Part shown: piece by piece, positions 31,659-33,614 of the stretch
Layout of the letters: each line of letters starts with the position of its first letter
Numbering within the stretch: the first letter of the stretch is position 1
Origin: Lachnospiraceae bacterium
Lineage (GTDB): Bacteria > Bacillota > Clostridia > Lachnospirales > Lachnospiraceae
Length of the DNA: 64,000 nt
Assembly (NCBI GenBank): GCA_021772075.1
Contig: JAETNQ010000012.1
Location: forward strand, 1-64,000
Reading direction: 5' to 3'
Notes under the pieces: generated by a model
The model's input: only the letters and a program-made list of their open reading frames with translations
Told to the model about the DNA's origin: nothing
The model's database searches: none
Program-made: the position numbers and the translations under genes

Positions 31659-33614
31659 CTACATCCGGTTCAATTCTTCAAATTTCCCCTTCAATTCATC
31701 GGAAATTTCGCCGATCATCGTCGCCGATGCCGCGATTTCCTGCGTGCTGGCCGCCAGATTGCTGATCCGTTCGTTCACCTCGTCCACAATCTCCATCAAA
31801 TGCTTGGATTCCTCCGCAAGCTTGTCCATGGCATTCCCGATTTCCTTTTTGTTTTTATTGCTGTCCAATGCCGTATCCCTGCTGGACTCGCTTAAACTTT
31901 TTATCTCCTGGGCCACAACGGCAAATCCCCTGCCGGCCGCGCCCGCCCTTGCCGCCTCGATCGAAGCGTTTAAAGAAAGCAGATTCGTCTGGCTCGCCAC
32001 TTCCGCAATGCTGTTGTTGTTCTCTTCCAGCTGCATCAGCAGACCATTGATTGTAACAAAAGATTTCTTCATATTACTACAGAAATCCACCACCGTCAGC
32101 ATCGCCGCGCTGATATTGCTGCTCTCCTCCGCATTGGAATTGTTGCCGCTTACCATCTCTGTAATGGATTCATTCAATATGGCAAAACTTTCATTCGCTT
32201 CCTTTACCATAATGCCGATCGCTTCATTTTTATACTGGATCTCCGTATTTTTCTCTTCTATCTGCCGGGAAACCTCTTGTACCTCTTCTTTTTCCCTCTC
32301 CACTTTTCCTTTTATGTAATGGACGCAGTTCTGTTTATTGTTGCAACCGTTGTAAATAGCCGCCGCCATATCCCTGCATGTCTTGTATCCGCAGGCGCTG
32401 CAGTCTATCGTCCTTTCCGCTTCCGTATTTTTATGCATAGTACGGAAAATTTCAGTCAGCTTGTCGGAACTCGGATAGTCGATGCTGCATCCTTTCGACT
32501 TATCCGTATATTTCCGCAGGAAATCGTTGATATCCAATGCCCTGAACTGGCGGTTCAGATTAGCCAGACGCTGCCTGGGGCTGAGCTTCGCCCCCCATGC
32601 GCTCATGCCGCCCCGTTTTTTGCTCGCCGCCTTGATGCGCTGTATCTCATAAAGGATATCTTCCGTCTTTCCTTTTTCTTCCTCAATTCCTGTCCCGTAA
32701 ATACATCCCTGCGCACAATTTAATGCATCCACCATAAACGGCAGTTCTTTCTTTCCAAGCACCCGTTTTTTATAATTTTCCAAGAATTCATAGGTATGCC
32801 TTTCTCCCTCGATCTGGCGCACGAATACGTCTTCTCCGCAGAACCAATAAACATTTTCCTTTAATCCGCCCGGCATAGGGTAAATCGAACCCAGCCCGTA
32901 TTCAATCTCGTCATTCACGGGTTCTCCCTTTATGTTATTTTTCCGCACATAATCCATCAAATGGCCAAAGGTAATATTATAGGATACATACCCTTTGTTG
33001 TTTTCATCCATGATTTCGTTCTTTTTCGCAATGCAGGGACTGATAAAAGCAAGCTTATCCGTAATCTTCTTATACTTTTTCGCATAGATCGCCGCGCACA
33101 TCAGCGGACTCTGCACCGGCACAAGGCTGGGAATCAATTTAGGAATATAATGCTCTATATAATTGACTACCGCCGGGCAGGGCTGGGAAATCCCCCCTGT
33201 AAAATGATGCTCGCTGATATATTTCACATACCCCCATGTAGTAATGTCCGCTCCAAAACTGACGCTGATGATGCGGTTTACCCCCATCTTTTTCAAGCCG
33301 CCCAAAATCTGCTTATACTCCCCGGGATAATTGGCGGCGAATGCCGGCGCCAGCAAAAGCGATATCTTCACGCCCTTTTTCAAATCCGTAAAAAAAGCCT
33401 CCGTATCATCCCGGAATTCTCTTGCCCCATGCTCACAGGCATCGAAGCAAGCGCCGCAGGCGATGCACTTATCCCCGTCCACCTGGATAATCTGCTTTCC
33501 GTCTTCTTCCACCGCCTTATTGGCGGTAATGACTGGGCATACAGAAATGCATTTGTTGCAGCCTATACATTTTCCATTTGTAAACACCAATCCTTTCTGC
33601 TTTTCTTTTGCCAT
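31659..33614 (-). CDS. [FeFe]-hydrogenase-like sensor fused to a methyl-accepting signalling domain
   Basis: Protein of 651 aa, no transmembrane segment, so cytoplasmic. Order: two 4Fe-4S ferredoxin motifs (Cys 16/19/22/26 and 50/53/56/60); hydrogenase large-subunit domain (about 75-320) with degenerate H-cluster motifs SQPCP (Cys146), SPCIAKK (Cys194) and NCAQGC (Cys300, Cys304); a further Fe-S domain CSACGYKTC plus later Cys (405-430); coiled coil; chemoreceptor tip ASQTNLLSLNASIEAARAG (about 541-559). The proton-relay Cys that precedes the first H-cluster Cys in active enzymes is Pro here. Start at 33614 has GGAGGG 7 nt upstream. Likely senses H2 or redox state and signals to CheA. Confidence 0.9.
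   Translation of the reverse strand: MAKEKQKGLVFTNGKCIGCNKCISVCPVITANKAVEEDGKQIIQVDGDKCIACGACFDACEHGAREFRDDTEAFFTDLKKGVKISLLLAPAFAANYPGEYKQILGGLKKMGVNRIISVSFGADITTWGYVKYISEHHFTGGISQPCPAVVNYIEHYIPKLIPSLVPVQSPLMCAAIYAKKYKKITDKLAFISPCIAKKNEIMDENNKGYVSYNITFGHLMDYVRKNNIKGEPVNDEIEYGLGSIYPMPGGLKENVYWFCGEDVFVRQIEGERHTYEFLENYKKRVLGKKELPFMVDALNCAQGCIYGTGIEEEKGKTEDILYEIQRIKAASKKRGGMSAWGAKLSPRQRLANLNRQFRALDINDFLRKYTDKSKGCSIDYPSSDKLTEIFRTMHKNTEAERTIDCSACGYKTCRDMAAAIYNGCNNKQNCVHYIKGKVEREKEEVQEVSRQIEEKNTEIQYKNEAIGIMVKEANESFAILNESITEMVSGNNSNAEESSNISAAMLTVVDFCSNMKKSFVTINGLLMQLEENNNSIAEVASQTNLLSLNASIEAARAGAAGRGFAVVAQEIKSLSESSRDTALDSNKNKKEIGNAMDKLAEESKHLMEIVDEVNERISNLAASTQEIAASATMIGEISDELKGKFEELNRM

Follow-up and report, generated by a model that had tools for sequence, protein, structure and literature searches.

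A soluble hydrogenase-type chemoreceptor of Lachnospiraceae, probably serving redox sensing in a host without HydE, HydF and HydG

The locus analyzed here raises the question of what a chemoreceptor senses when its head is of the [FeFe]-hydrogenase type and none of the H-cluster maturases HydE, HydF and HydG is found over cut-off in its host. The receptor gene lies in a stretch of 64,000 nucleotides from a Lachnospiraceae genome, referred to below in its entirety as the window. The gene was confirmed as real, with a product of 651 aa; an earlier sequence-only reading had its coordinates right but did not give the strand, which is minus (Table 1). The ATG at 33614 was favored over a further-upstream ATG at 33722 because it is preceded, at a distance of 7 bases, by GGAGGG (read by eye) and because most of the listed homologues have about this length. 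A membrane chemoreceptor with HAMP and MCP domains starts about 120 bases downstream on the same strand, and its true start may be further upstream; upstream of the receptor gene are two long ORFs that by eye resemble the small and large subunits of glutamate synthase (34202-40332, minus strand). No conserved operon partner of the fusion was found in 61 loci. The receptor cluster comprises 74 ORFs across these loci, so that no more than 13 of them can be receptors additional to the fusions. Apart from receptors and antisense ORFs, what recurred was an ORF resembling an ABC transporter (by eye) at 14 loci and one resembling a response regulator at 6, neither of which is in the window.

Table 1. 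Positions of the receptor gene, its predicted parts and a neighboring receptor in the window
Feature	Position	Strand	Basis
Soluble hydrogenase-type chemoreceptor, whole gene	31659..33614	-	ORF and Pfam matches
GGAGGG, ribosome-binding-site-like	33622..33627	-	Upstream sequence read by eye
Two ferredoxin-type [4Fe-4S] motifs, Cys16/19/22/26 and Cys50/53/56/60	33417..33578	-	Fer4_7 39.2 bits
[FeFe]-hydrogenase H domain with Cys146, Cys194, Cys300, Cys304	32685..33368	-	
C-terminal Cx2Cx4Cx16C [4Fe-4S] motif, Cys405/408/413/430	32325..32402	-	PF04060 24.2 bits
Coiled-coil receptor hairpin, MCP signaling part at residues 532-642	31662..32324	-	MCPsignal 74.8 bits
Membrane chemoreceptor, HAMP and MCP (neighbor, not part of the receptor)	29929..31539	-	

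The series of domains proposed from the sequence, i.e. two ferredoxin motifs, a hydrogenase domain, a third Fe-S domain and an MCP tip, was confirmed by Pfam, which placed 4Fe-4S dicluster domains at residues 12-64, Fe_hyd_lg_C at residues 88-307 (107.4 bits) and the FeS domain PF04060 at residues 403-431, with the last of these and MCPsignal both over their cut-offs (23 and 34.6 bits, respectively). The receptor hairpin begins directly after the FeS motif. By hydropathy there was no membrane segment in the receptor, the best 19-residue mean being 1.44 compared with 2.32 in the membrane-bound neighboring receptor, and this together with the MCPsignal match agrees with the earlier claim of a soluble chemoreceptor. 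There was no PAS domain among the 25 Pfam matches listed. The structure model in use, built from 78 sequences with a mean pLDDT of 83.7, has a hydrogenase fold and predicted helices at residues 431-556 and 558-650, where pLDDT is mostly 62-75; an earlier model from 21 close sequences (mean pLDDT 51) was set aside.

The hydrogenase-MCP architecture is already known as HydDB group C2. Direct wiring to chemotaxis, which the sequence-only reading took for the unusual feature, is therefore not new: the HydDB table listed [FeFe] group C2 in 2016 as "Chemotactic (putative)" with an "Undetermined role", and as possibly sensing H2 via methyl-accepting chemotaxis proteins (PMC5037454). A passage of PMC9431212 restates this description, and group C2 matches were discarded in the checks described there. 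Beyond that table and that passage, we found no papers on the receptor in open-licence PubMed Central, and none there that link the receptor family with missing maturases, although more may be in print.

A homologue search at E 1e-3 returned 5703 proteins, and the 120 listed (643-722 aa) all have hydrogenase and MCP domains. Among the 80 of 549 GTDB loci listed, most relatives are titled Lachnospiraceae bacterium, and the other titles are Roseburia, Agathobacter, Acetatifactor, Lachnoclostridium, Eubacterium, Clostridium, one Bacillus and three "bacterium"; the copy of Lachnospiraceae bacterium 28-4 is 92% identical to the receptor. Within an evenly drawn sample of 376 genomes of the host's family, each at least 95% complete, 78 matched the receptor at E 1e-60 and 62 contain a close full-length fusion (61 by match rows, plus genome G209, whose match had been split), with a divergent fusion in 12 genomes, of which the 11 that were read have 34-38% identity. 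Recurrence of the full-length fusion in these 62 genomes and in the listed homologues rules out an assembly or annotation artefact joining two genes, a danger to which the earlier reading had itself pointed. There were also 27 rows lacking a match to the MCP end. Nine were fetched, one being the full fusion of G209 and eight having other tails; the five of these eight that were scanned carry related hydrogenase-type heads on HD-GYP (one), histidine kinase with receiver (one) and GGDEF-EAL (three) outputs (L099, L100, L102, L104 and L106). Since heads are found on such different outputs, the head would be a movable sensor module, which suggests a general input module for several signaling systems.

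The chemotaxis output that had been predicted for this protein holds up. In the host genome, genes for FliY, FlhB, FlhA, FlhF, CheB, CheA, CheW, CheC and a FliA-type sigma factor are grouped in a flagellar-chemotaxis cluster (not all of these names are backed by an equivalog match over cut-off), and CheR, CheB, CheA, CheW and receptors are found together in a second cluster. CheW-domain genes were present in all 62 fusion genomes compared with 32 of 76 non-fusion genomes (every fourth genome, minus 17 with a close and one with a divergent fusion), and the Fisher p of 1.7e-15 is too strong, related genomes not being independent. The hairpin-tip residues Asn549, Glu553, Arg556 and Gly558 occur in 62/62 copies. 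With a signaling domain over cut-off, a conserved tip, and CheA and CheW partners in the genome, the protein has the features expected of an MCP. The methylation-site consensus has one match in the receptor and is matched in 29/62 copies, the reversed control being worthless for a palindromic pattern. A scan for a sigma-28 promoter upstream of the receptor gave best scores no better than those of Markov shuffles or of the other strand in the 57 of 62 regions covered, four regions with uncertain starts and one with too little sequence having been omitted.

The hydrogenase domain had been described as degenerate, with four H-cluster cysteines kept and a proline at the proton-transfer position. 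Both residue assignments stood: Cys146, 194, 300 and 304 match the H-cluster ligand positions of hydrogenases with solved structures and are Cys in 62/62 close copies, and the position of the proton-relay cysteine (CpI C299) is occupied by Pro145, Pro in 62/62 copies. Ser192 (61/62) and Leu298 (62/62) are at what we take, from our own alignment, to be the positions of CpI M353 and M497, the same being true of Pro145 and C299. The receptor has SQPCP, SPC and DALNC rather than the catalytic TSCCP, MPC and ExMxC, and the catalytic family models score far under their cut-offs (TIGR04105, 141 of 450 bits; TIGR02512, 85 of 406 bits); it has neither the score of a catalytic [FeFe]-hydrogenase of groups A and B nor the proton-relay Cys and Met motifs. 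The altered motifs, judged from the aligned copies, are a nearly fixed set of sensory type (Ser, Leu and non-Cys) and not the product of random decay. The Cx2Cx4Cx16C cysteines are likewise kept in 62/62 close copies, and together with the H-site cysteines they are invariant across 78 aligned proteins with 33-90% identity to the receptor. In the second ferredoxin motif all 60 copies covering it have Cys, and in the first 59 of the 59-60 copies covering each position do, the sole exception adjoining an uncertain start. Pro90 is invariant, as is Lys197 in 62/62 copies, maturase-less hosts included. In CpI a cyanide of the [2Fe] unit is in contact with a lysine, to which we take Lys197 to correspond.

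The presence of HydEFG in the genome had been named as a check on the suggestion that the receptor responds to H2 or redox potential, and the outcome was negative: in a model search of the host genome, which is 99.95% complete, none of the three was found over cut-off. HydG and HydE have their best match in a single gene, taken by eye to be ThiH-like from the thiamin genes around it, besides which there were no HydG or HydE relatives in the host at E 1e-3. Of the 12 HydF matches none exceeds 92 of 325 bits, and they cover the GTPase part. Partial maturase sets are frequent in the family. HydG was found in 177 and HydF in 223 of the 376 genomes, with HydF lacking HydG in 47 and HydG lacking HydF in only one. 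Among the 62 fusion genomes 27 have HydE, HydF and HydG, 29 have none, four have HydF and HydE, one has HydF only and one HydE only; the 12 hosts of the divergent fusion comprise eight with both HydG and HydF, one with HydF only and three with neither. HydG and HydF are both missing from 30 of the 62 fusion genomes versus 122 of the 314 others (Fisher p 0.20), i.e. fusion and maturases are not associated across the family genomes. On a quick tree of the receptor, with 56 all-or-none rows labeled and 6 partial rows omitted, maturase state undergoes at least 17 changes, compared with 18.9 +/- 2.1 in 200 label shuffles, 26% of which were at or below 17. Maturase state thus has almost no link to the descent of the receptor. 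Of the four receptor parts compared, none is better conserved than the H domain, whose mean identity is 66.8% in genomes with maturases and 68.8% in those without. What is newly added to this known kind of receptor is its independence from HydEFG.

With the maturases missing, redox state rather than H2 becomes the likely stimulus. The explanation we prefer, and consider probable, is that the protein is a cytoplasmic Fe-S redox chemoreceptor, likely functioning without a [2Fe] subcluster in this HydEFG-less host. The four H-site cysteines would hold a plain [4Fe-4S] cluster, as in hydrogenases made without HydEFG; in the account given in part of PMC6984386, a hydrogenase produced in a host without HydEFG has the [4Fe-4S] cluster only. 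Ferredoxin and other cytoplasmic reductants or oxidants would set the oxidation state of the clusters, the two ferredoxin clusters would hand electrons to the H-site [4Fe-4S] cluster, and the Cx2Cx4Cx16C cluster would lie where the coiled coil starts, such that a shift in cluster oxidation would move the helices and change CheA activity. The receptor would then be an anaerobe's equivalent of Aer energy taxis. In hosts with HydEFG the same head might also carry the full H-cluster, adding a response to H2.

Several findings count against the redox reading, the sigma-28 scan without excess among them. First is that Lys197 is invariant, and it is not obvious what use a plain [4Fe-4S] site would have for a lysine contacting [2Fe]. 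Secondly, genomes without maturases still carry group B hydrogenases whose catalytic motifs are kept. The host itself encodes one such protein as well, a group B-type [FeFe]-hydrogenase that lies outside the window (G000:C41:80091-81590; L001:1390-2892, minus strand). With a cut at E <1e-150, applied by hand to the match table, group B was present in 71 of the 152 genomes with neither HydG nor HydF and in 92 of the 176 with both. The motifs TSCCP, GPCA[SA]KK and EGMACPGGC were intact in 20/20 of the group B sequences that were read for genomes with neither HydG nor HydF, and the same motifs, with EGM[AG]CPGGC, in 20/20 copies from genomes with both, the 40 copies being among the best-scoring of 266 genomes and not a random draw. 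Judged from these sequences, maturase-less group B proteins would either have another job or be assembled by a route that current models miss.

A true H2 receptor, in which a complete H-cluster comes from an assembly route missed by the HydE, HydF and HydG models and H2 binding sets CheA activity, would fit these patterns and the invariant Pro90, and it is what HydDB itself suggests for group C2. It was demoted from first choice because the maturases are missing, and we regard it as unlikely. Sensory heads with Ser and Leu are described, in parts of PMC6984386 and PMC11803613, as accepting the [2Fe] unit on artificial maturation. Group B enzymes work in other gut bacteria: in a passage of PMC12578642 that does not give maturase content, high H2 is described for 12 of the 13 isolates that carry group B genes, in a collection that includes four Clostridia genera. 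Against such a receptor are the host's matches, limited to the ThiH-like gene and to GTPase parts, and the finding that no full-maturase-like gene recurs beside the 20 maturase-less group B loci among the top 14 clusters listed. In that same listing an NrdG-like radical-SAM gene (by eye; e.g. L245) is near group B at 4/20 maturase-less loci versus 0/20 others, and is in our view probably not a maturase; over all 40 loci the neighbors include glutamyl-tRNA-synthetase-like (27/40), helicase-like (27/40) and FeoB-like (8/40) genes, all by eye. Furthermore, a search at E 1e-90 gave no group B match for 10 of the 29 fusion genomes without maturases, so that the receptor does not depend on a group B protein. 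Intact group B motifs in dozens of genomes without HydG and HydF, and Lys197 invariant with 29 genomes lacking HydE as well, are the reasons to think that Lachnospiraceae may build active sites of the hydrogenase family by means other than the known maturases; that both a novel H-cluster route and an H2-sensing chemoreceptor exist is in our estimate quite doubtful. H2 sensing by the receptor in this host is, from the gene content, disfavored.

A further alternative is that O2, NO, CO or peroxide attacks an open-site [4Fe-4S] cluster, with damage rather than electron transfer as the signal and avoidance of oxidants as the outcome. The H-site ligands are all kept, and with the [2Fe] unit probably missing the cluster would be accessible; the receptor's relatives are gut anaerobes. 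The two ferredoxin motifs and the C-terminal cluster, however, resemble an electron chain that would be superfluous in a damage sensor, and we think this explanation improbable. As to selection on the H domain, 13 pairs were tried for dN/dS and dS was saturated in five; a maturase-less and a maturase-bearing genome of one genus have 222/228 H-domain residues in common with dN/dS 0.008, and the other seven usable pairs give 0.028-0.12, rough values as dS is mostly >1. A decaying or non-functional fusion retained by chance, for which one could cite the non-catalytic motifs and low family-model scores, is very hard to reconcile with dN/dS of 0.008 to 0.12 in the eight usable pairs, with ligands invariant over 78 proteins and with CheW in every fusion genome.

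Receptors of this kind are currently listed as putative H2 sensors. If roughly one close member in two lives in a cell with no known route to the H2-binding part, H2 sensing cannot be the general function of the family. Were the redox reading true, the hydrogenase fold would be a stand-alone redox-sensing module plugged into chemotaxis, kinase and cyclic-di-GMP outputs. Caution is also warranted for gut metagenomes, in which counts of hydrogenase genes do not equate to H2 metabolism unless HydEFG is checked.

Several known systems bear comparison with the receptor as we read it. Nar1/NARF have a hydrogenase fold without the [2Fe] unit, as proposed here, and are eukaryotic Fe-S assembly proteins rather than receptors. 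Aer and the energy-taxis receptors couple cytoplasmic redox sensing to CheA, as the present receptor would, but Aer is membrane-anchored with FAD in a PAS domain, whereas this protein is soluble with Fe-S motifs in place of the FAD-PAS. HydDB group C2 has the same link of a hydrogenase domain to an MCP output, the assignment being made by domain architecture from the HydDB table (PMC5037454); H2 sensing is supposed there, whereas 29 of the 62 close members, the receptor included, lack HydE, HydF and HydG. In TmHydS of Thermotoga maritima, as portrayed in part of PMC10055695, the C299, M353 and M497 positions are also altered and a sensory role is proposed, but a PAS domain is in place of the receptor's coiled coil and Ser is at the M497 position. 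Motifs are also shared with group D (M2e): the receptor has Cx2Cx4Cx16C and no PAS among the Pfam matches listed, as does Tam-HydA/TamHydS of Thermoanaerobacter mathranii, which according to passages of PMC6984386 and PMC11803613 shares Ser at CpI M353, Leu at CpI M497 and a non-Cys residue at CpI C299. Unlike the receptor, TamHydS has Ala at the C299 position (PMC11803613), where the receptor has Pro, and it accepts the [2Fe] unit with slow H2 production (same passages of PMC6984386 and PMC11803613), while in the receptor the FeS motif is followed by the coiled coil.
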